Positions 50,178 to 58,118 of a stretch of 64,000 nt of DNA are shown one piece after another; position 1 is the stretch's first letter, and every line of letters begins with the position of its first letter. The notes beneath the pieces are model-generated. The model was not told the origin of the DNA and ran no database searches. It saw only the letters and a program-made list of their open reading frames with translations. The stretch comes from Streptomyces showdoensis (GTDB lineage Bacteria; Actinomycetota; Actinomycetes; Streptomycetales; Streptomycetaceae), in NCBI RefSeq assembly GCF_039535475.1, contig NZ_BAAAXG010000026.1, forward strand, positions 3,591,501-3,655,500, in the 5' to 3' direction. Both the position numbers and the translations under genes were made by a program.

Positions 50178-50984
50178 TCAGGCCGTACGGGCCGCGAGGG
50201 CCAGGACGCGGCGGGCGCCCTCGACGACGGCGGCGTCCACGAAGCGGCCGTCGGGGAGGGCGAGCGCCCCCTCCTCGGCCTCCGCCGCCTTGACGACCTC
50301 CTCGGCCGCGGCGATCTCGTCGGGCGTGGGGCGGTAGGCGCGGGCGATGACCGGGAGCTGGCGCGGGTGGATCGCGGCCCGGCCGAGGAAGCCCATGGCC
50401 CGGCCCCGCGCGCACCCGGCGGCGAGCGCGTCCAGGTCGCGGACGTCGGGGTGGACCGACTGGACCGGGGGCGGGAGCGCGGCGGCGCGGGCGGCGACCA
50501 CGACCCGGCTGCGCGGCCAGTCGAGGCCGCTGTCCTCCTGTACGCCCAGGTCGGCGGCGAGGTCGGCCTCGCCGAGGGCGATGCCGTGGACCGAGGGGTG
50601 GGCGGCGGCGATGGCGTACGCGTGCTCGACGGCCAGGGCGTTCTCCAGGAGCGGGTAGAGCGGGAGGCCCTGGGCGAGCTCGACGATCCGGTGGATGTCA
50701 GTGGGGTGTGTCACCTTGGGAACACGGAGAGCGACGATCCCGGGGAGGGGTGCGAGTGCGCGGATGTCACGGGGCGTGTGGATGCGGACGTGGATCGGTA
50801 CGGGGTGGGGTTCGGCGAGCAGTTCGGCGGTCGCGGCCAAGGCGTAGGCCTTGCGGTCCGGGGCCACCGAGTCCTCCAGGTCGACGATGACGACGTCGGC
50901 TCCGGAGGCCAGGGCCTTGCGGACCACGGACGGGCGGTCGCCGGGGGCGTAGAGCCAGGTGAGGGGGGTCGCGGCCCGGGTCAT
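50178..50984 (-). CDS. HpcH/HpaI-type aldolase, CitE-like CoA-ester lyase
   Basis: 268-aa (beta-alpha)8 lyase of the CitE family, which cleaves or forms acyl-CoA hydroxy acids (malyl-, citramalyl-, citryl-CoA types). It begins TWLYAPGDRPSVVRKALASG and has ADVVIVDLEDSVAPDRKAYA (metal-binding Asp/Glu), VALRVPKVTHP, LYPLLENALAVEHAYAIAAA and HGIALGEADLAADLG (metal ligand Glu). It ends the seven-gene operon and overlaps the CoA-transferase gene by 4 nt, suggesting that the two act in sequence on a CoA ester. The substrate is unknown. Confidence 0.87.
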   Translation of the reverse strand: MTRAATPLTWLYAPGDRPSVVRKALASGADVVIVDLEDSVAPDRKAYALAATAELLAEPHPVPIHVRIHTPRDIRALAPLPGIVALRVPKVTHPTDIHRIVELAQGLPLYPLLENALAVEHAYAIAAAHPSVHGIALGEADLAADLGVQEDSGLDWPRSRVVVAARAAALPPPVQSVHPDVRDLDALAAGCARGRAMGFLGRAAIHPRQLPVIARAYRPTPDEIAAAEEVVKAAEAEEGALALPDGRFVDAAVVEGARRVLALAARTA

Positions 50985-52195
50985 ACGGCGCCCTCCTCGC
51001 GCAGGGCGGCGATCTCGGCGCCGGTGAGGCCCAGCTCGGTGAGGAGCTCGGTGGTGTCGGCGCCGTGCGGCCGGCCGGCCCAGCGGATGCGGCCGGGGGT
51101 CTCGGAGAGCCGGAAGAGGACGTTCTGCATGCGGATCGGGCCGAGTTCGGGGTCCGGGACCTCGGTGACGGTGTCGAGGGCCTGGAACTGGGGGTCGGCG
51201 AGCACGTCCCGGACGTCGTAGACCGGGGCGATCGCGGCCTCCGCCTTCTCGAACGCGGCCAGGGCCTCCTCGCGGGTGTGGCGGGCGATCCAGGAGCCGA
51301 CCGCCTCGTCGAGGAGCTCCGCGTGCGCGGCCCGGCCGGTGCCGTCCGCGAACCAGGGCTCGTCGATCAGCTCCGGGCGGCCGACCAGGCGCAGCACGCG
51401 TTCGGCGATGGACTGGGCGGAGGTGGAGACGGCGACCCAGGATCCGTCGGAGGTCCGGTAGGTGTTGCGCGGGGCGTTGTTGCGGGAGCGGTTGCCGGTG
51501 CGGGGCTGGACGTAGCCGAGCTGGTCGTACCAGAGGGGGTGGGGTCCGATGACGGAGAGCATCGGTTCGATGATGGCCATGTCGACGACCTGGCCGCGGC
51601 CGGTGGTGTTCCTGGCGGTGAGCGCGGTCATCACCGCGTACGCGGTGGCGAGGGCGGCGATGGAGTCGGCGAGGCCGAAGGGCGGCAGGGTCGGCGGTCC
51701 GTCGGGTTCGCCGGTGATGGCGGCGAAGCCGCTCATGGCCTCGGCGAGGGTGCCGAAGCCGGGCCGGTGGGCGTACGGGCCGAACTGGCCGAAGCCGGTG
51801 ACCCGGGCGAGCACCAGCCGCGGGTTGACGGCGGACAGCTCGTCCCAGCCGAGGTCCCAGCGCTCCAGGGTGCCGGGCCGGAAGTTCTCCACGATCACGT
51901 CGGCGTCGGCGGCCAGCCGCAGCAGGGTGTCGCGGCCGCCGGGGGCGGACAGGTCCAGGGTCATCGTCCGCTTGTTGCGGCCGAGGACCTTCCACCACAG
52001 GCCGACCCCGTCCTTCGCCGGGCCGTGGCCGCGGGACGGGTCGGGCCGGCGGGGGTGCTCGATCTTGACGACCTCGGCACCGAAGTCGCCGAGCATCATC
52101 GCCGCGAGCGGACCGGCGAAGAGGGTGGCGAGGTCGAGGACGCGCAGTCCGCGGAGGGGCGGGGCGGGCGCGGCGGACGGGTCGGCGGCGGTCAT
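50981..52195 (-). CDS. CaiB/BaiF family (class III) CoA-transferase
   Basis: 404 aa. Class III transferases move CoA between carboxylic acids through an aspartyl intermediate. Visible are LRVLDLATLFAGPLAAMMLG with FGAEVVKIEHP, RNKRTMTLDL, ADVIVENFRPGTLERWDLGW, and RVTGFGQFGPYAHRPGFGTL followed by SGFAAITGEPDGPP. The catalytic Asp should be in PPFGLADSIAALATAYAVM. It overlaps the ribokinase gene upstream and the CitE-like lyase gene downstream by 4 nt each. The acid substrate cannot be told. Confidence 0.9.
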   Translation of the reverse strand: MTAADPSAAPAPPLRGLRVLDLATLFAGPLAAMMLGDFGAEVVKIEHPRRPDPSRGHGPAKDGVGLWWKVLGRNKRTMTLDLSAPGGRDTLLRLAADADVIVENFRPGTLERWDLGWDELSAVNPRLVLARVTGFGQFGPYAHRPGFGTLAEAMSGFAAITGEPDGPPTLPPFGLADSIAALATAYAVMTALTARNTTGRGQVVDMAIIEPMLSVIGPHPLWYDQLGYVQPRTGNRSRNNAPRNTYRTSDGSWVAVSTSAQSIAERVLRLVGRPELIDEPWFADGTGRAAHAELLDEAVGSWIARHTREEALAAFEKAEAAIAPVYDVRDVLADPQFQALDTVTEVPDPELGPIRMQNVLFRLSETPGRIRWAGRPHGADTTELLTELGLTGAEIAALREEGAV

Positions 52196-53103
52196 GCGGG
52201 CTCCGCCTCCGGCTCTCCGGCCGCCGCCTCGATCTCGGAGCGGTACGGCATCGAGGTGGACGCGCCGGCGCGCTGGACCGAGAGCGCGGCGGCGGCCGAG
52301 GCCCAGGCGAGCGCCCCCGGCACGGGACGGCCCTCCGCCAGGGCGACGGCCAGGGCGCCGACGAAGGTGTCGCCCGCGGCGGTGGTGTCCACGGCCCGGA
52401 CGCGGGGCGCGGGCACGGTGACGGGTTCGGCGCCGCGCGTGGCGTACAGGCAGCCGGAGGCGCCGAGGGTGATCACCACCTCGGGGACGAACCGCAGCAG
52501 GGCCTGCGCGGCGGCGTGTGGTTCGGCATGGCCGGTGAGGGCGGCGGCCTCGTGCTCGTTGGGGACCAACAGGTCGGTGGCGGCGAGGAGTTCCGGTGGC
52601 AGGGCACGGGCGGGGGCGGGGGTGAGGACGGTGCGCACGCCGAGGCCGCGGGCGGTGCGGGCGCCCTCGACGACGACGGAGAGGGGGAGTTCGAGCTGGA
52701 GGAGCAGGGCGTCGGCGGTGCCGATCAGGGCCTCGTCGCCGTGGGTGAGGGAGGTGACGGTGCCGTTGGCGCCGGGGACGACGACGATCGCGTTGCCGCC
52801 CTCGTCGTCGACGACGATGTGCGCCGTGCCGGAGGGGCCCTCGACGGTGCGCAGCAGGTCGGTGTCGACGCCGCTGTGTTCGAGGGCGGACCGGAGCCGG
52901 GCGCCGAACTCGTCGGCGCCGACCGCGCCGATCAGCGACACCTCCGCTCCGGCCCGGGCGGCGGCGACGGCCTGGTTGGCGCCCTTGCCGCCGGGGACGG
53001 TGCGGAACTCGCGGCCGGTCACGGTCTCGCCGCGGGCGGGGGCCCTGGGCACATAGGCCACGAGGTCCATGTTCGTGCTGCCGAGCACGACGATGCTGGT
53101 CAT
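52192..53103 (-). CDS. rbsK: PfkB-family carbohydrate kinase, ribokinase type
   Basis: 303 aa, closest in layout to ribokinase: IVVLGSTNMDLVAYVPRAPA at the start, RTVPGGKGANQAVAAARAGA (ribose-binding GGKGANQ), PSGTAHIVVDDEGGNAIVVV, LVPNEHEAAALTG, and AVDTTAAGDTFVGALAVALA with the catalytic Asp in the anion hole (usually DTTGAGD, here DTTAAGD). It would phosphorylate ribose or a related pentose or nucleoside. Its place directly after four ADP-ribosylglycohydrolase genes suggests that it acts on a released ribosyl product. It overlaps both neighbours by 4 nt. Confidence 0.88.
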   Translation of the reverse strand: MTSIVVLGSTNMDLVAYVPRAPARGETVTGREFRTVPGGKGANQAVAAARAGAEVSLIGAVGADEFGARLRSALEHSGVDTDLLRTVEGPSGTAHIVVDDEGGNAIVVVPGANGTVTSLTHGDEALIGTADALLLQLELPLSVVVEGARTARGLGVRTVLTPAPARALPPELLAATDLLVPNEHEAAALTGHAEPHAAAQALLRFVPEVVITLGASGCLYATRGAEPVTVPAPRVRAVDTTAAGDTFVGALAVALAEGRPVPGALAWASAAAALSVQRAGASTSMPYRSEIEAAAGEPEAEPA

Positions 53104-54566
53104 GGGCGTACGGCCTCCGAGTGGGTCAGTGCGGCCAGGGTGTCGAAACCGATGCCGTCGAAGGACGGCACCGAGGTGGCGAGACGGTTCTTGAGGGGGG
53201 AGGTCCAGCGTGCGGGCAGCCGGTCCGGGTGACCGGCGAGCAGTCCGGCGACGGAGCCGGCCGTGGCGCCGTTGGAGTCGGTGTCCCAGCCGCCCGAGAC
53301 GGCGGCGCAGACCGAGCGGGTGAAGTCGCCGTCGGCGTGGGTGAGGGCGGCGGCGAGGAGGGCGGCGTTGGGGACGGCATGGACCCAGTGATACCCGCCG
53401 AACCGGGCGTGGAGCCGGTCCACGACCGGGTCGAAGTCCCGGGGCGCGCGGGTGTCGCGGGCGAGGGCGATGCCGTACCGCACGGCCTCGGCCAGCCGTG
53501 ACTCCGGTGGGACGACGGCGAGTCCGGCGGCCAGGGCCCGGTGGACGTCGGCGCTGCCGCCGGCGGCCGCCGCGAGGGTGGCGGCGACGAACATGGCGCC
53601 GTACACGCCGTTGCCGGTGTGGGTGAGCACCGCGTCCCGGTGTGCCTGCCGGGCGGCGGCGGCCGGGTCGCCGGGACGGGTCCAGCCGTGCACGTCGGCG
53701 CGGATCTGGGCGCCGATCCACTCCCGGAACGGGTTGCGGCGGGAGGCGGTGAGCGGGGGTTCGACGCCGTCGAGGAGGTTGCGGTAGGCGATCCGCTCGG
53801 CGGTGAAGGTGCGGCCGGCGGGCAGTTCGTCGAGCCAGATCCGGGCGACGTCGGCGGTGCTGAAGCCGCGGCCGTGGCGGCGGAGCAGGAGCAGGCCGAG
53901 GAGGGGGTAGTTGAGGTCGTCGTCCTCGGGCATGCCGTCGATGTTCTCGGCGAGGGAGGTGGCGGCGGAGCGCCGGTTCCAGGGGTGCGCGGCGAGCAGG
54001 GCGGGGGGTACGCCGCGGGCCGTGAACCAGTCGGCGAGCGGCCAGTTGCCGGTGGCGCGGGCGAGGGCGCGGAGGGCGTCCAGGGGCAGCTTCTCGACCG
54101 GCTTGCCGAGCAGGCAGCCGACGGCCCGGCCCAGCCAGGCGGCGTGCAGGCGGGGGAGGAGGCCGGGGAAGGGGTCCGGGAGGAGGCCGGGTGCCGGGTG
54201 CCGTCGTCGGTCGTCCGGCCAGTCGGGGCAGGCGGCGACGATGGCCGCGAGGTCGGTGGGTTCGCGGGAGGACAGGGGGGAGGGGAGGGCGGCCAGGGCG
54301 TCCAGGAGTTCTTCGGCCAGCGGCCGCAGCGCGGGGTGGGCGGTGGGGGAGGCGCCGGCGGTGGCCGGGGCCGGGGGGCCGCCGGCCGCCTGCCAGCGGG
54401 CGGCGAGTGCGCCGGCGTCGCGGCCGTCCTCCGCCGCCTGGCGCAGCTCGTGTCCGACCAGGTCCTCGGGCTGGACCCAGGTCAGCCGCAGCGGGGCGCC
54501 GGCCGCGCCCGACGGGCCCGGGGCCGGTCCTGCGGGCGTCCGGGTCCCGGCTTCGGCGGTCGTCAT
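53100..54566 (-). CDS. ADP-ribosylglycohydrolase-family protein D, with extra N-terminal region
   Basis: 488 aa. The first 110 residues or so, containing LRLTWVQPEDLVGHELRQAA, are not part of the DraG fold. The DraG/ARH domain follows: RLHAAWLGRAVGCLLGKPVE, then MPEDDDLNYPLLGLLLL in place of the usual TDDT metal motif, AERIAYRNLLDGVEPPLTAS, HTGNGVYGAMFVAATLAAAA, and AVSGGWDTDSNGATAGSVAG with the second metal motif GWDTDS intact. It probably still binds at least part of the dinuclear Mg site. The 4-nt overlaps on both sides show tight coupling. Confidence 0.85.
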   Translation of the reverse strand: MTTAEAGTRTPAGPAPGPSGAAGAPLRLTWVQPEDLVGHELRQAAEDGRDAGALAARWQAAGGPPAPATAGASPTAHPALRPLAEELLDALAALPSPLSSREPTDLAAIVAACPDWPDDRRRHPAPGLLPDPFPGLLPRLHAAWLGRAVGCLLGKPVEKLPLDALRALARATGNWPLADWFTARGVPPALLAAHPWNRRSAATSLAENIDGMPEDDDLNYPLLGLLLLRRHGRGFSTADVARIWLDELPAGRTFTAERIAYRNLLDGVEPPLTASRRNPFREWIGAQIRADVHGWTRPGDPAAAARQAHRDAVLTHTGNGVYGAMFVAATLAAAAGGSADVHRALAAGLAVVPPESRLAEAVRYGIALARDTRAPRDFDPVVDRLHARFGGYHWVHAVPNAALLAAALTHADGDFTRSVCAAVSGGWDTDSNGATAGSVAGLLAGHPDRLPARWTSPLKNRLATSVPSFDGIGFDTLAALTHSEAVRP

Positions 54567-55714
54567 CGGGCCGTGCCGGTCAGGGCCGCGTAGGCGGACT
54601 CGTGGGCGCGGCGACGGGCGGTGTCGCGGGCGTGGACCTCGCGGGCGACCGCGGCGAGGGCGGTCGCCGGGGCGTGCAGGTCGAGGCGGCTGGCCTCGGC
54701 CACCCGCTTCGCCCACTCCGCGGGGATCACCGACTCGCCGCCCAGCGCCCCGGCGATCGCGCCCGCCATCGTGGCGATCGAGTCGCAGTCCCGGCCGTAG
54801 TTGACCGCGCCCAGGACCGTGCGGCGGTAGTCGCCCGCGCCGACGAGCAGCATGCCGAGGGCGATGGGCAGTTCCTCGATCGCGTGGACGCGGGAGGGGC
54901 GGCGGGCGTCGAGGGAGGGGGCCCGGTAGTCGGGGCCGACGGAGTCGTACGGGGCGACCGCGCGGCGCAGCGGGTCGAGCGCGGACTCGAAGTCGCGGTG
55001 GGACGCGGCGACTTCGGTGACGGCCCGGATCGCGGCGCGGGTGCCGTCCTTGGCGAGCGCCAGCGCCGTGTCGACGACCGAGCGCGGGGTGGCGCCCGGG
55101 ACGCAGGCCGCGGCGACCGCCGCCGCGAAGACGCCGGCCGCTTCCCGGCCGTAGGAGGACTGGTGGGCGCCCGCGAGGTCGAGCGCCTCGGCGTAGGCGC
55201 CCGCCGGGTTCGCCGCGTTCACCAGGCCGACCGGGGCCATGTACATCGCGGCCCCGCAGTTGACGATGTTCCCGGTGCCGGCCTCGCGGGGGTCGGCGTG
55301 GCCGTAGTGGAGCCGGGCCACGATCCACTTCTCGGCCAGGAACACCCGCTGGAGGGGGAGCGCCTCCGCCTCCAGTTCGGGGATCCACACGGGGCGGCCC
55401 ATGAGTTCGGGGACCAGGTGCTCGGCGACGGCGTACGCGTCGAGGTGGTCGCGGACCTCCTCGTACACCCTGATCAGGGCGTGCGTCATCAAGGTGTCGT
55501 CGGTGACGTGCCCGTCGCCCTTGTGGTACGGCGCGATGGGGCGCGCGGTGCGCCAGGCCCCGCCGTTCCAGGGGCCGACGATGCCGGTGACGCGGCCGCC
55601 GTGGCGTTCCAGGATCTGGGCGGGCGTGTAGCCCTCGACGGGGCCGCCGAGGGCGTCGCCGACGGCGGCGCCGATGAGGCTGCCGGTGATCCGGTCATCC
55701 AGAGTGGGTGTCAT
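54563..55714 (-). CDS. ADP-ribosylglycohydrolase-family protein C
   Basis: 383 aa, complete DraG/ARH fold. It begins LDDRITGSLIGAAVGDALGG, has the first metal motif in HVTDDTLMTHALIRVY and the second in VNYGRDCDSIATMAGAIAGA, so both metal centres are predicted. Proteins of this family remove ADP-ribose from proteins or small molecules, or hydrolyse related N-glycosides. ATG at 55714 (MTPTLDD) is preferred; an in-frame GTG at 55729 is possible. It overlaps the upstream gene by 20 nt. Confidence 0.88.
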   Translation of the reverse strand: MTPTLDDRITGSLIGAAVGDALGGPVEGYTPAQILERHGGRVTGIVGPWNGGAWRTARPIAPYHKGDGHVTDDTLMTHALIRVYEEVRDHLDAYAVAEHLVPELMGRPVWIPELEAEALPLQRVFLAEKWIVARLHYGHADPREAGTGNIVNCGAAMYMAPVGLVNAANPAGAYAEALDLAGAHQSSYGREAAGVFAAAVAAACVPGATPRSVVDTALALAKDGTRAAIRAVTEVAASHRDFESALDPLRRAVAPYDSVGPDYRAPSLDARRPSRVHAIEELPIALGMLLVGAGDYRRTVLGAVNYGRDCDSIATMAGAIAGALGGESVIPAEWAKRVAEASRLDLHAPATALAAVAREVHARDTARRRAHESAYAALTGTAR

Positions 55715-57035
55715 GTCTGAATTGTCCACCCGGTCCTGCCGGTTCCGTGGCTCCGAGGAGACCGGCGAGTTCCACCAGGTCCGTGCCCGCGAGCCGGGGC
55801 AGCGCGCAGCCCGCGAGCGTCCGGCAGGCCTCCCGCCAGGTCGCCGGAACCGAACCGCCGCCGCCCAGCGCGCCGGTGAGCGCGCCCACCAGCGCCGGGG
55901 CCGAGTCGGCGACCCGTGACAGACAGGCCGCGGCCGGCAGCGCGGCGGCGATCTCGCCGCGCGCGGCGGTGGTCAGGGCGAGGGCGACGGGCACGGTCTC
56001 GGCGGCGGCGATGCCGTAGCTGTAGACGTGGTCGACGATCCGGTGTTCCAGGAGCGGGACCAGCTCGAAGGCGGAGGCGGCGGTGCGGGCCAGCTCGACG
56101 GCGTACCGGCCGTTGCGGCCGATCTCGGTGGCGGGCGGCAGTTGCGCCAGCGCCGCCTCCACGGCCTCGTCGGGCCCGGCCCCGCCGATGGCGGCGGCGG
56201 TGGCCGCCGCCATCGCCCGCGCGCCGTGCACGCCGTCGCCGTCCTGGGTGTAGCGGGCGTCGAACTCGGCGAGTTCGGCCGCGGCGGCCGGGTCGCCGGG
56301 GTGCACCAGGGCGAGCACGGCGGCCCGGACGCAGGCGGCGTCGTCGAAGTAGTGCGGGTTGTCGTGGCCGGTGGCGGGCGGGCGCAGCCCGGCGGCGAGG
56401 TTGCCGAGACCGGCCCGGACCGAGATCCGGGCGCGGAGGGGCAGGACGGCGGACTCGACCTCGGGGGCGCGCTCGGCCGCGGCGGCGACCTGGCTGGCGA
56501 GGGAGTTCCAGGCCAGGTCGACGGCGGCGCGCAGCCGGCGTTCCGGGGGCAGGGCGTCGAAGAGCGGGCCCGCGGAGGCGAGCAGGGCCTCGGCGGTGAA
56601 CACCGCCCACTCGGCGTCGTCGGAGGGGCCGAGGCGCAGCGGCTCGGGGGGCTGGTTGAGGGCGATGGGGACGGGGAGGGTGGTCGTCGCGTTCTGCTCG
56701 GCGAAGGTGTCGAGTTCGCGGGTGAGGCGGCGGGTCCACTCGGGCATGCGGGCGGCGCGGTGCCTCGCCGCGGGCCAGCCGGCGGCGTCGCCCGCGGCGA
56801 GGCCGAGGAGGAGGCCCTCGATCGTGTCGCGGCTCGCCCTCGCGGGGGCGGCGGCCCTGCGGGTGCCCAGGACGGGGGCGCGGCGGGCGACCCGTACCGG
56901 GGGCGGGTTCCGGTGGGCGGGGTCCAGGGGGACCGTGTCGGCCGTCGCGGGCCGTGCCCACTCCGGCCGCCCTCCTCCGGTGGAACGCTCGTCCACGCCC
57001 GGTGCGGCGGGTGCCACCGTCGTCTCTCCGCTCAT
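55695..57035 (-). CDS. ADP-ribosylglycohydrolase-family protein B, metal site degenerate
   Basis: 446 aa with a long, low-complexity N-terminal region of about 95 residues before TIEGLLLGLAAGDAAGWPAA. The first metal motif is altered to SDDAEWAVFTAEALLA. At the place of the second motif (GxDxDT/S) the sequence reads CLSRVADSAPALVGALTGA, so the two ligand aspartates are not conserved (codons near 55886-55930). This copy may be inactive or act as a partner or sensor for the other copies. The ATG overlaps the upstream stop by 1 nt. Confidence 0.82.
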   Translation of the reverse strand: MSGETTVAPAAPGVDERSTGGGRPEWARPATADTVPLDPAHRNPPPVRVARRAPVLGTRRAAAPARASRDTIEGLLLGLAAGDAAGWPAARHRAARMPEWTRRLTRELDTFAEQNATTTLPVPIALNQPPEPLRLGPSDDAEWAVFTAEALLASAGPLFDALPPERRLRAAVDLAWNSLASQVAAAAERAPEVESAVLPLRARISVRAGLGNLAAGLRPPATGHDNPHYFDDAACVRAAVLALVHPGDPAAAAELAEFDARYTQDGDGVHGARAMAAATAAAIGGAGPDEAVEAALAQLPPATEIGRNGRYAVELARTAASAFELVPLLEHRIVDHVYSYGIAAAETVPVALALTTAARGEIAAALPAAACLSRVADSAPALVGALTGALGGGGSVPATWREACRTLAGCALPRLAGTDLVELAGLLGATEPAGPGGQFRHDTHSG

Positions 57036-58030
57036 CAGATCTCCCCCTCCGGGGTCAGCAGGTCCGCGATGTCCAGCACGTGGTAGCCCCGCATCGACGG
57101 CAGGCAGCTGCCGGTGACCGGGCCGATGGCGGTGGACCACTCCTCCGGGATGGCGGCGAGGCCGCCCGAGGCGCCTGCCAGGGCGCCCGCCACCGCCGCC
57201 GTCGTGTCGGCGTCGCGGCCCATGTTCACGGCGGTCAGGACCGCCGTGCGGAAGTCGCCGCGGGCCGCGGCGAAGGCGCCGAAGGCGAGGGCGACGGCCT
57301 CGGGGGCCAGGTCCGTCCAGGGGTAGCCGCCGATGACGACCGCCGAGCGGACCGTGCGCTCGCGGGTCGGCGGGTCGGGCTGGACGCGCTGCGCGGCGAC
57401 CACCGCGCGGCGCATCGAGCGGGCCGTCCAGGAGTCCATCGGGACCACCGAGAGGGCCGCCGCGATGACCGAGGTGACCGAGGCGCCGGCCATCGCCGCG
57501 GCGACGCCAGCCGCGACGGCCTGGCCGCCGTAGATGCCCTCGCCCTCGTGGCTGACGCTCCCGTCGACGGCCACCAGCCGGGCGGCCTCGGCGGGGCGGC
57601 CCGCGGCGAAGACCCCGAAGGGCGCGGCCCGCATGGCGAGACCGTCGCTCCAGGCGTGCCGGTGCTGGGCGGAGATGGGGGCGGCCAGCCCGCGCCGCAG
57701 GTTCTCCAGGGTGCCGCGCTCGGAGAAGCCGGCGCCGCGGAACGGGCCTTCGTCGAGGTCGGCGATCCAGTGGTGCCAGGCCCGTTCGACGTGGGCCACG
57801 GTCAGCGCCGAGCCGTGCCGGGCGAGCAGCAGGCCGGAGAAGATGGCGTACTCGGTGTCGTCCGTGCCCGCCGGACGGTCCGTCACGAAGCCCTCGATCC
57901 GGCCCCATCGGCGGCGGATCTCCGAAGGGCGCAGGTTCTCGGCGGGCGCGCCGAGCGCGTCGCCGACCGCGAGCCCGAGCAGCGCGCCCCTCGCGCGCTC
58001 GCGCACGTCACACATCGTCGTGCCGATCAT
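57035..58030 (-). CDS. ADP-ribosylglycohydrolase-family protein A
   Basis: 331 aa, first gene of the operon. Complete fold: ERARGALLGLAVGDALGAPA, first metal motif T56-D57-D58-T59 in AGTDDTEYAIFSGLLLA, and second metal motif in VNMGRDADTTAAVAGALAGA, both canonical. Expected to hydrolyse an ADP-ribosyl or related N-glycosidic bond with Mg2+. ATG at 58030 follows AAAGGGGAG; upstream codons to 58090 in the same frame look non-coding. The operon promoter should lie in 58031-58260. Confidence 0.88.
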   Translation of the reverse strand: MIGTTMCDVRERARGALLGLAVGDALGAPAENLRPSEIRRRWGRIEGFVTDRPAGTDDTEYAIFSGLLLARHGSALTVAHVERAWHHWIADLDEGPFRGAGFSERGTLENLRRGLAAPISAQHRHAWSDGLAMRAAPFGVFAAGRPAEAARLVAVDGSVSHEGEGIYGGQAVAAGVAAAMAGASVTSVIAAALSVVPMDSWTARSMRRAVVAAQRVQPDPPTRERTVRSAVVIGGYPWTDLAPEAVALAFGAFAAARGDFRTAVLTAVNMGRDADTTAAVAGALAGASGGLAAIPEEWSTAIGPVTGSCLPSMRGYHVLDIADLLTPEGEI

Positions 58031-58100
58031 GTGCACTCCCCTTTCACGCTCACCCGGATGCCTGCCACGCGAAGGGGCCGGACCCTCCACCGAAACGTTT

Positions 58101-58118
58101 CTGTCACCCGGGTGACAG
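58101..58118. promoter_or_regulatory. Perfect 18-bp palindrome in the divergent promoter region
   Basis: CTGTCACCCGGGTGACAG lies 71 nt upstream of the first ADP-ribosylglycohydrolase gene (minus) and 142 nt upstream of the VIT-family gene (plus). The size suits a homodimeric regulator of one or both units. Confidence 0.6.

Follow-up and report, generated by a model that had tools for sequence, protein, structure and literature searches.

A Streptomyces operon with four ADP-ribosylglycohydrolase homologues as a candidate core for the breakdown of an imported ribosyl conjugate

Several described gene groups invite comparison with the locus reported here. The yegTUV genes of Escherichia coli specify a putative nucleoside symporter, the ADP-ribosylglycohydrolase (ARH)-family protein YegU and the PfkB kinase YegV, have YegW/GgaR as their regulator and have been tied to ADP-glucose and glycogen (PMC10819704). 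The draT-draG system is responsible for the reversible ADP-ribosylation of dinitrogenase reductase; clusters of the RipA-RipB-RipC type are responsible for itaconate degradation; and sugar ABC operons of the CUT1 type are accompanied by a LacI-family regulator. Each resembles in some respect a group of genes from Streptomyces showdoensis that lies within a stretch of 64,000 nucleotides (hereafter the window) and that includes four ARH homologues (Table 1).

Table 1. Features of the operon and its upstream region, in window coordinates
Feature	Position	Strand	Description
ARH1	57035..58030	-	ADP-ribosylglycohydrolase family, 331 aa, complete metal-ligand set; PF03747 203 bits
ARH2	55695..57035	-	ARH family, 446 aa, degenerate metal site; PF03747 123 bits
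ARH3	54563..55714	-	ARH family, 383 aa; PF03747 178 bits; orthologue in rhizobial operons
ARH4	53100..54566	-	ARH family, 488 aa, N-terminal extension; PF03747 164 bits, residues 142-446
Ribokinase	52192..53103	-	303 aa; PF00294; TIGR02152 319.9 bits
Class III (CaiB/BaiF) CoA-transferase	50981..52195	-	404 aa; PF02515 416 bits
CitE-like CoA-ester lyase	50178..50984	-	268 aa; PF03328 81.7 bits
GAAACGTTTC palindrome	58092..58101		upstream of ARH1

The operon runs from 58030 to 50178 on the minus strand, flanked by lgt and a VIT1-family gene, and its position and its content of seven genes are exactly those of the original prediction. The prediction had also given overlaps of 1-20 nt, and we measured 1, 20, 4, 4, 4 and 4 nt along the seven genes, which suggests that they may be translated as a single unit. 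The second of these values takes the ATG at 55714 as the start of ARH3; an alternative GTG start at 55729 would lengthen the ARH2/ARH3 overlap to 35 nt. Among relatives, whose genes were called with a simple codon-score script that places starts only approximately, an overlap is kept between ARH4 and the ribokinase gene in 62 of 71 cases, between the CoA-transferase and lyase genes in 77 of 98, and between ARH1 and ARH2 in only 29 of 78.

The four ARH proteins all exceed the curated cut-off of PF03747 (26.2 bits), and they account for four of the ten PF03747 genes in the genome. The metal-ligand set, which from ARH/DraG structures we take to be Glu, Thr-Asp-Asp and Asp-x-Asp, is full in ARH1 and ARH3: residues E31, T56, D57, D58, D273, D275 and T276 of ARH1 reach at least 97% conservation across 95 sequences, and the ligands of ARH3 are conserved to the same degree in 103. 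In ARH4 the Thr of the TDD triad is replaced by Asp (all ten aligned ARH4-clade rows), and ARH2 has lost the Glu together with the first DxD Asp. Both of these positions are missing from the list of conserved ARH2 residues (85 sequences), and in the aligned ARH2-clade rows the Asp is replaced in eight of eight and the Glu in six of eight. Four homologues are present as predicted, but ARH2 may not be an active hydrolase; the loss of these ligands makes it probable that ARH2 is a pseudoenzyme or a partner subunit of ARH1. A protein database search with ARH3 returned 6502 matches, of which the best 120 are all at least 86% identical and come from Streptomyces where the organism is named; identity to the ARH3 of Ensifer is 43%.

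What the operon shares with draT-draG is the ARH fold and, in ARH1 and ARH3, the metal-ligand pattern. The original prediction had called the proteins DraG/ARH-like, yet they are not close to DraG: identity is 23-29%, and they form four old clades separate from it. The cut-off of 337 for the DraG equivalog TIGR02662 was not reached (ARH1, 76.6 bits; ARH2, no match; ARH3, 60.3; ARH4, 19.3). Unlike draG, moreover, the ARH genes have no recognised transferase neighbour, a family search having found no ADP-ribosyltransferase among the seven genes and six flanking genes. A draT-draG system is rejected as the main reading. Nor did Pfam reveal a transferase of this kind, or a transporter, among the seven genes, in agreement with what had been predicted. 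The likeness to yegTUV lies in the joining of a transporter, an ARH-family enzyme and a sugar kinase in one operon; unlike the window operon, however, yegTUV has only one ARH (19-24% identical), a single MFS-type transporter and no CoA enzymes.

The kinase exceeds the cut-off of the NCBIfam ribokinase model TIGR02152 (299.65 bits), as does that of locus L126, and several other operon-linked kinases fall just under it. No NCBIfam cut-off was reached by any ARH, the CoA-transferase or the lyase. The CoA-transferase matches PF02515 over its full length (profile positions 1-366 of 366), and all seven of its NCBIfam matches are below cut-off, the best being succinate-glutarate CoA-transferase (233 bits; cut-off 750). 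Relatives of this enzyme are also encoded beside CitE and a TRAP transporter (TRAP DctM and a GntR regulator in L171, L233, L236 and L239), which points to a dicarboxylate as substrate. As in itaconate degradation, a class III CoA-transferase adjoins a CitE/RipC-like lyase. Unlike a Bradyrhizobium cluster, which has a MaoC-type hydratase, the window operon has no MaoC-type enoyl-CoA hydratase among its seven genes by Pfam, and its lyase is far below the cut-off of the RipC itaconate C-C lyase model (NF038242, its best NCBIfam match; 129.1 bits against 375). An itaconate operon is rejected as the main reading.

The co-conservation that the original prediction had put up for checking holds across Streptomyces and other actinobacteria, with the exception that the ribokinase gene is often missing in Streptomyces. 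Presence in Streptomyces was counted by tblastn, because the gene calls of our script undercount ARH1 and ARH2. ARH1, ARH3, ARH4, the CoA-transferase and the lyase were found in 70 of 70 loci, ARH2 in 69 and the ribokinase in 45 (missing in 25); these loci, of at least 18 kb, were drawn from the 80 best ARH4 matches and are biased to presence. Among 121 Streptomyces genomes, ARH4 and the lyase are both present in 89 and both absent in 27, with five discordant (two and three). The gene order of the block is kept in Streptomyces, where adjacency is partly plain synteny. Among 246 genomes of the class, a CoA-transferase match at E <=1e-120 occurs in 43 of the 43 with an ARH4 orthologue (one of them, G131, scored positive from fragments) versus 18 of the 203 without. 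In another phylum, 12 of 13 rhizobial plasmid loci have a LacI-family regulator, a sugar-type importer and ARH3, and of these 12, 11 have an ARH4-like gene and seven a CoA-transferase; CitE likewise occurs in rhizobial ARH operons. Because order is kept in Streptomyces and the same partners recur in other families and another phylum, the block is not a chance assembly. In ARH operons, the rhizobial and actinobacterial CoA-transferases are not sister groups, and the CoA-transferase-CitE pair perhaps joined ARH operons twice, in two phyla.

The original prediction had left the source of the substrate open. The relatives' operons, which carry an ABC importer and a LacI regulator, favour uptake over protein modification or NAD turnover. 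Of 19 loci from other actinobacterial families (18 of 25 class-sample genomes with an ARH4 orthologue, plus Nonomuraea from a plasmid collection), 18 have LacI, two permeases and a binding protein within the cluster. A sugar-type ABC importer is also attached in eight Streptomyces loci (L104, L115 of S. hoynatensis and L188-L193), seven of them with LacI; the eighth, L192, ends at a contig edge. In L193 the importer stands at the VIT1-lgt site itself, that is, at the chromosomal position of the window operon. The permeases and binding protein are absent from the window operon, and a diverged transporter copy, whose binding protein shares 49% identity (E 5.6e-124), lies on another contig of the same genome; this copy and the operon-linked Streptomyces transporters form one clade with support of 1.0. 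Association of the detached transporter with the block is loose: it is absent from 25 of 91 Streptomyces with ARH4 and present in 14 of 30 without (p=0.014, ignoring phylogeny). The site has lost its LacI and transporter genes in most of the Streptomyces loci seen, and many genomes retain a diverged copy, as this one does. The window operon looks like a shortened form of a larger operon for the import and breakdown of a compound of ribose and an organic acid. The complete form in relatives has the layout of a CUT1-type sugar ABC operon with LacI, from which it differs in having ARH-family proteins in place of glycosidases and an added CoA-transferase and lyase, and, in the window's genome, in the detachment of the transporter.

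We lean, by a little, toward the view that these genes form the central part of a catabolic operon whose substrate is a small imported glycoside, most likely a carboxylic acid conjugated to a ribofuranosyl group. The gene content, its conservation, the relatives' transporter and the ligand patterns are observed; the substrate, every reaction and any role of the detached transporter we infer as follows. Where the operon is complete, the compound would enter through a CUT1-like ABC transporter controlled by a LacI-family regulator, and the ARH-fold metalloenzymes would cut the ribosyl bond, with ARH1 pairing with the degenerate ARH2, and ARH3 with ARH4, possibly for two linkages or two steps. 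The ribokinase would convert ribose to ribose-5-phosphate. The acid set free would receive CoA through the CoA-transferase, with succinyl-CoA or a similar compound as donor, and retro-Claisen cleavage of the resulting acyl-CoA by the lyase would yield acetyl-CoA and a keto acid. To judge from weak family similarity, a dicarboxylate of the malate type, for example citramalate or 3-hydroxy-3-methylglutarate (HMG), would fit best as the acid; the substrates considered were cobamide-derived alpha-ribosides, nicotinate riboside, and conjugates of HMG or citramalate. The data fit the predicted sequence of cleavage of an N- or O-ribosyl compound, phosphorylation of the pentose, and activation with CoA and cleavage of the acid, and lend no support to an ADP-ribosylated substrate. 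A bolder proposal, which we advance tentatively and with some doubt, is that actinobacteria and rhizobia share a pathway new to description, in which the four ARH clades would be small-molecule ribofuranosidases (ARH1-ARH2 an active/pseudoenzyme pair, ARH3-ARH4 another pair) acting on an imported ribofuranosyl-dicarboxylate, a natural compound that has so far escaped notice as a nutrient in soil; the pathway is absent from the titles in the literature searched.

The acid and sugar steps might instead be separate pathways, as is suggested by the location of the CoA-transferase-CitE genes away from the ARH block in Nonomuraea, G121 and G131. One promoter would then serve a module for riboside or nucleoside use (transporter, ARHs and ribokinase) and an independent dicarboxylate module. 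The CoA-transferase-CitE pair does occur in loci that lack ARHs, either beside TRAP transporters or in cyclase-MmgE/PrpD clusters, and some rhizobial operons (L168) have ARHs and ribokinase without it. Genes were assigned as cyclase, MmgE/PrpD, racemase, amidohydrolase or FAD proteins by Pfam for L231 and partly for L243, and by eye for the other such loci. We consider this division unlikely in view of the unfailing presence of the CoA-transferase orthologue with ARH4 in the class, the joint loss of ARH4 and CitE in Streptomyces, and the attachment of the pair to ARH operons in two phyla. Quite improbable, in our judgement, is a sugar other than ribose, for example an arabinofuranoside or apiose, with a PfkB enzyme of altered specificity. 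Sphingopyxis has a gene of the GH127 beta-L-arabinofuranosidase type with a ribokinase, a GH-like protein and a CoA-transferase, the kinases just under the ribokinase cut-off would be in keeping with such a change, and the listed relatives of the binding protein bind sugars, oligosaccharides being the usual ligands of the binding proteins of such transporters. Against this, the window and L126 kinases exceed that cut-off, and ribosyl bonds are the target of ARHs with known activity.

Were the block instead a system for reversible ADP-ribosylation, its four ARHs would strip ADP-ribose from nucleic acids or proteins, breakdown products would be cleared by the kinase and the CoA enzymes, and the relatives' transporter would be incidental. 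The ARH domain of all four proteins is consistent with such a system, and in two reports SCO2028-SCO2030 (PMC5087735) and SCO2028-SCO2031 (PMC9411070) of S. coelicolor are counted among uncharacterised DraG/ARH homologues, the former report also suggesting a lively ADP-ribosylation metabolism. The LacI regulator and sugar-type importer in relatives, the block's want of a recognised ADP-ribosyltransferase gene, unlike draT-draG, and the distance from DraG nonetheless lead us to reject protein ADP-ribosylation as the main reading and to regard it as very unlikely. SCO2028 and SCO2030 were, in addition, inactive on the single substrate U-alpha-ADPr (PMC13036486).

The catabolic reading suggests that ARH-type enzymes, commonly regarded as reversing protein ADP-ribosylation, can have a nutritional role as well. 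Streptomyces ARH-family genes have been counted as putative de-ADP-ribosylating enzymes (PMC5087735, PMC9411070); if four of this genome's ten work instead as catabolic glycosidases, such a count is a misleading guide in the search for bacterial ADP-ribosylation, and many ARH homologues need a different annotation. If the reading is correct, soil or the surroundings of roots would contain a ribose-acid compound that has yet to be named, and the binding protein encoded in complete operons offers a direct route to finding it.

Finally, we note the palindrome GAAACGTTTC upstream of ARH1. Genome-wide there are five such sites versus one in a reversed control, with no clear regulon, and permA of the detached transporter has no AAACGTTT palindrome upstream, so control of that transporter through such a site is unsupported. 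The core AAACGTTT is present in only two of 63 other LacI-less Streptomyces loci. It does recur upstream of LacI, in 10 of the 16 relatives examined, a weak hint that GAAACGTTTC is possibly a relic of a LacI-type operator.

The seven genes that the original prediction had described as one operon were confirmed together with their coordinates (see the table). They occupy the minus strand between lgt and a VIT1-family gene and overlap by 1, 20, 4, 4, 4, and 4 nt, in a Streptomyces-type chromosome region with trpB, trpA, and lgt to one side and, to the other, glutamate synthase and the VIT1 gene. Pfam recognized PF03747 (ADP-ribosylglycohydrolase) in four of the products (ARH1–ARH4), as well as a PfkB kinase, a class III CoA-transferase (CoAT), and an HpcH/HpaI-type lyase (CitE). 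The kinase scored above the NCBIfam cut-off for ribokinase (RK), and none of the other six proteins scored above the cut-off of an NCBIfam model. The whole genome contains ten PF03747 genes.

Coordinates of the features discussed
Feature	Location	Strand
Seven-gene block (ARH1, ARH2, ARH3, ARH4, RK, CoAT, CitE)	window, 58030-50178	minus
Palindrome CTGTCACCCGGGTGACAG	window, 58101-58118	
640-aa SUMF1-domain protein	L126:6187-8109	
996-aa SUMF1-domain/ribokinase frame	L134:2648-5638	
Further PF03747 protein (L004)	G000:C26:2248155-2249066	

In relatives the block comes with a transporter. A search of the class found an ARH4 orthologue in 43 genomes, 25 of them non-Streptomyces, and we fetched 19 non-Streptomyces loci, representing 18 of the 25 genomes plus Nonomuraea (L121–L135, L147, L154, L155, and L170). 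All except L134, which begins at a contig end, carried a LacI gene, two ABC permease genes, and a binding-protein gene within the cluster, usually immediately ahead of ARH1 (for L126, the domains of LacI, the binding protein, and one permease were checked with Pfam; CUT1 is our own label for the class). CoAT and CitE were not attached in L135, L147, and L170. The transporter was also attached in eight Streptomyces loci (L104 from S. gossypii, L115 from S. hoynatensis, and L188–L193), seven of them with LacI (L192 is cut off by a contig edge). A short Streptomyces contig, L203, carries part of it. The transporter-bearing operon of L193 sits between VIT1 and lgt, and that of L104 adjoins lgt. 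Taken together with the other relatives, these loci make it most likely that the window operon has been shortened from a larger one. A further Streptomyces genome (L202) has lost the ARH block and retains only permease and binding-protein genes between VIT1 and lgt.

A related transporter is encoded elsewhere in the window's genome. The L126 binding protein had one strong match there (49% identity, E 5.6e-124; next match, E 2.6e-20), beside which, on contig C28, lie two relatives of the operon permeases. A tree built from concatenated alignments of permeases and binding protein grouped the Streptomyces transporters, whether detached or linked to the operon, in one clade (23 tips, support 1.0); 12 of the 13 detached ones made up a subclade (support 1.0), L204 grouping with the linked ones, and one genome, G302, carries both copies. 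This topology fits a duplication within the lineage. The association of the detached transporter with the ARH block is loose: a binding-protein orthologue was present in 66 of 91 Streptomyces genomes with ARH4 and in 14 of 30 without it (Fisher p=0.014, kinship ignored). Streptomyces lacking the orthologue must rely on a different importer or obtain the substrate in some other way.

Conservation of the block within Streptomyces held for every member except the kinase. In a set of 70 loci 18 kb or longer, kept from the best 80 ARH4 matches and hence biased to presence, ARH1, ARH3, ARH4, CoAT, and CitE were each found in all 70 and ARH2 in 69, with lgt flanking 69 and VIT1 flanking 68; RK was found in 45 and is the dispensable member. 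Across 121 Streptomyces genomes, orthologues of ARH4 and CitE, hand-picked from listed matches to exclude ARH4 paralogues of 44–51% identity and CitE matches of 48% or less, occurred together in 89 and were both missing from 27 (ARH4 only, two; CitE only, three). By our own approximate gene caller, neighbors overlapped in relatives for ARH4–RK in 62 of 71 cases, for CoAT–CitE in 77 of 98, and for ARH1–ARH2 in no more than 29 of 78, so the seven genes are not tightly coupled throughout as a general rule.

The partners recur outside the actinobacteria. A plasmid collection held 24 records with an ARH3 match, and 12 of 13 Rhizobiales plasmid loci examined, some closely related to one another, had an ARH3 orthologue with genes for LacI, two permeases, and a binding protein ahead of it. 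Eleven of these 12 had an ARH4-like gene (L209 was the exception); among the 13, CoAT occurred in seven, CitE in six, and ribokinase in two, plus one fragment. Window proteins were 43% (ARH3), 45% (CoAT), and 35% (CitE) identical to those of Ensifer, and the ribokinase was 44% identical to that of Agrobacterium. The gene order is LacI-permease-permease-SBP-hypothetical-ARH-ribokinase-ARH in Deinococcus (SBP, binding protein) and LacI-ARH-SBP-permeases-ribokinase-UgpC in Mycolicibacterium. On an Enterobacter hormaechei plasmid (L161), consecutive genes encode LacI, an ARH-family protein of 711 aa, and an extracellular solute-binding protein.

What would explain all these partners most simply is the uptake and breakdown of a ribofuranosyl-carboxylate, which would be imported and hydrolyzed by the ARH-type enzymes; the freed ribose would be phosphorylated, and the acid would receive CoA and undergo C–C cleavage. 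What the analysis itself shows is gene content, conservation, and residue patterns. That the sugar would be ribose is supported by the ribokinase scores of the window and L126 kinases; linked kinases of L104, L140, L157, L158, and L168 scored 2 to 40 bits below the ribokinase cut-off, that of Mycolicibacterium 110 bits below, and YegV gave no match to the model at the limit used.

The class of the acid we infer from CoAT and CitE. Of 20 loci fetched for CoAT relatives outside ARH operons, two lacked CoAT by the gene caller and a few fitted neither of two types. One type is a GntR-CoAT-CitE-DctM unit (L171, L233, L236, and L239; DctM was Pfam-checked in L171 only). Because a dicarboxylate-type importer here adjoins only these two enzymes, CoAT and CitE together are suggested to degrade a hydroxy-dicarboxylate. 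In line with this, the closest NCBIfam models were succinate-glutarate CoA-transferase for CoAT and RipC for CitE, both below cut-off. Across 246 genomes of the class, a CoAT match (E<=1e-120) was present in 43 of 43 with an ARH4 orthologue and in 18 of 203 without. The CoAT–CitE unit lies apart from the ARH block in Nonomuraea and in genomes G121 and G131, which leaves room for two independent pathways rather than one. The other type combines CoAT with a cyclase, MmgE/PrpD, and a varying number of extras: a CitE-type lyase, an amidohydrolase, an Asp/Glu/hydantoin racemase, and an FAD oxidoreductase (e.g., L231). The CoAT, cyclase (PF04199), and MmgE/PrpD cluster recurs in actinobacteria (L231, L243, L229, L230, L234, L237, L240, L241, L244, and L246) and looks like a degradation pathway using the same type of CoA-transferase.

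As judged from their sequences, ARH1–ARH4 are not recent tandem copies. Identity among them is only 25–33%, and identity to YegU and a DraG from Rhodobacter is 19–29%. Each has a clade of its own (support 0.94 for ARH1 and 1.0 for ARH2, ARH3, and ARH4), shared with relatives encoded at other LacI-transporter loci. The ARH1–ARH2 pair recurs divergent from a LacI gene in L140, L145, and L146 (in L140 and L145 with sugar-type genes for permease and binding protein, identified by eye), which suggests that the pair works as a unit; in rhizobia the recurring pair is ARH3 with an ARH4-like gene. Compared against what we take to be the metal-ligand set of ARH/DraG structures, ARH1 and ARH3 are complete, the ARH4 clade has Asp at the usual Thr position (10 of 10 rows), and in the ARH2 clade the Asp-x-Asp motif no longer has its first Asp (8 of 8 rows). 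The operon's ARH2 has lost the Glu ligand as well. ARH2 probably serves as a partner subunit or is a pseudoenzyme. Elsewhere in the genome, the PF03747 protein of L004 lacks most metal ligands in the alignment and is a possible second pseudo-ARH.

We take lgt of S. coelicolor to be SCO2034; from this and their consecutive numbers, SCO2028–SCO2031 presumably correspond to ARH1–ARH4. SCO2028–SCO2030 (PMC5087735) and SCO2028–SCO2031 (PMC9411070) are named among the DraG/ARH homologues still uncharacterised; on alpha-U-ADPr, SCO2028 and SCO2030 were inactive (PMC13036486). A full-text literature search, with subscription journals mostly outside its coverage, did not find the operon described as a pathway.

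Finally, we note some further features. In 9 of the 19 non-Streptomyces loci, CoAT is preceded by a 640-aa protein in which Pfam recognizes a C-terminal SUMF1-type domain only; the N-terminal part matches nothing in Pfam and, by eye, reads like a glycosidase barrel. In L134 the SUMF1-domain protein and ribokinase form a single open frame, and a Sphingopyxis relative adjoins ribokinase, GH127, and CoA-transferase (L156 and L157 are listed with the protein). Between VIT1 and ARH1 the window has a perfect 18-bp palindrome, CTGTCACCCGGGTGACAG, whose inner 14 bp occur in 2 of 65 Streptomyces VIT1–ARH1 gaps compared, the window being one of the two. The words GCCAGCAA and CCAGCAAG, on either strand, were each found in 64 of the 65 gaps and are perhaps part of VIT1 control.
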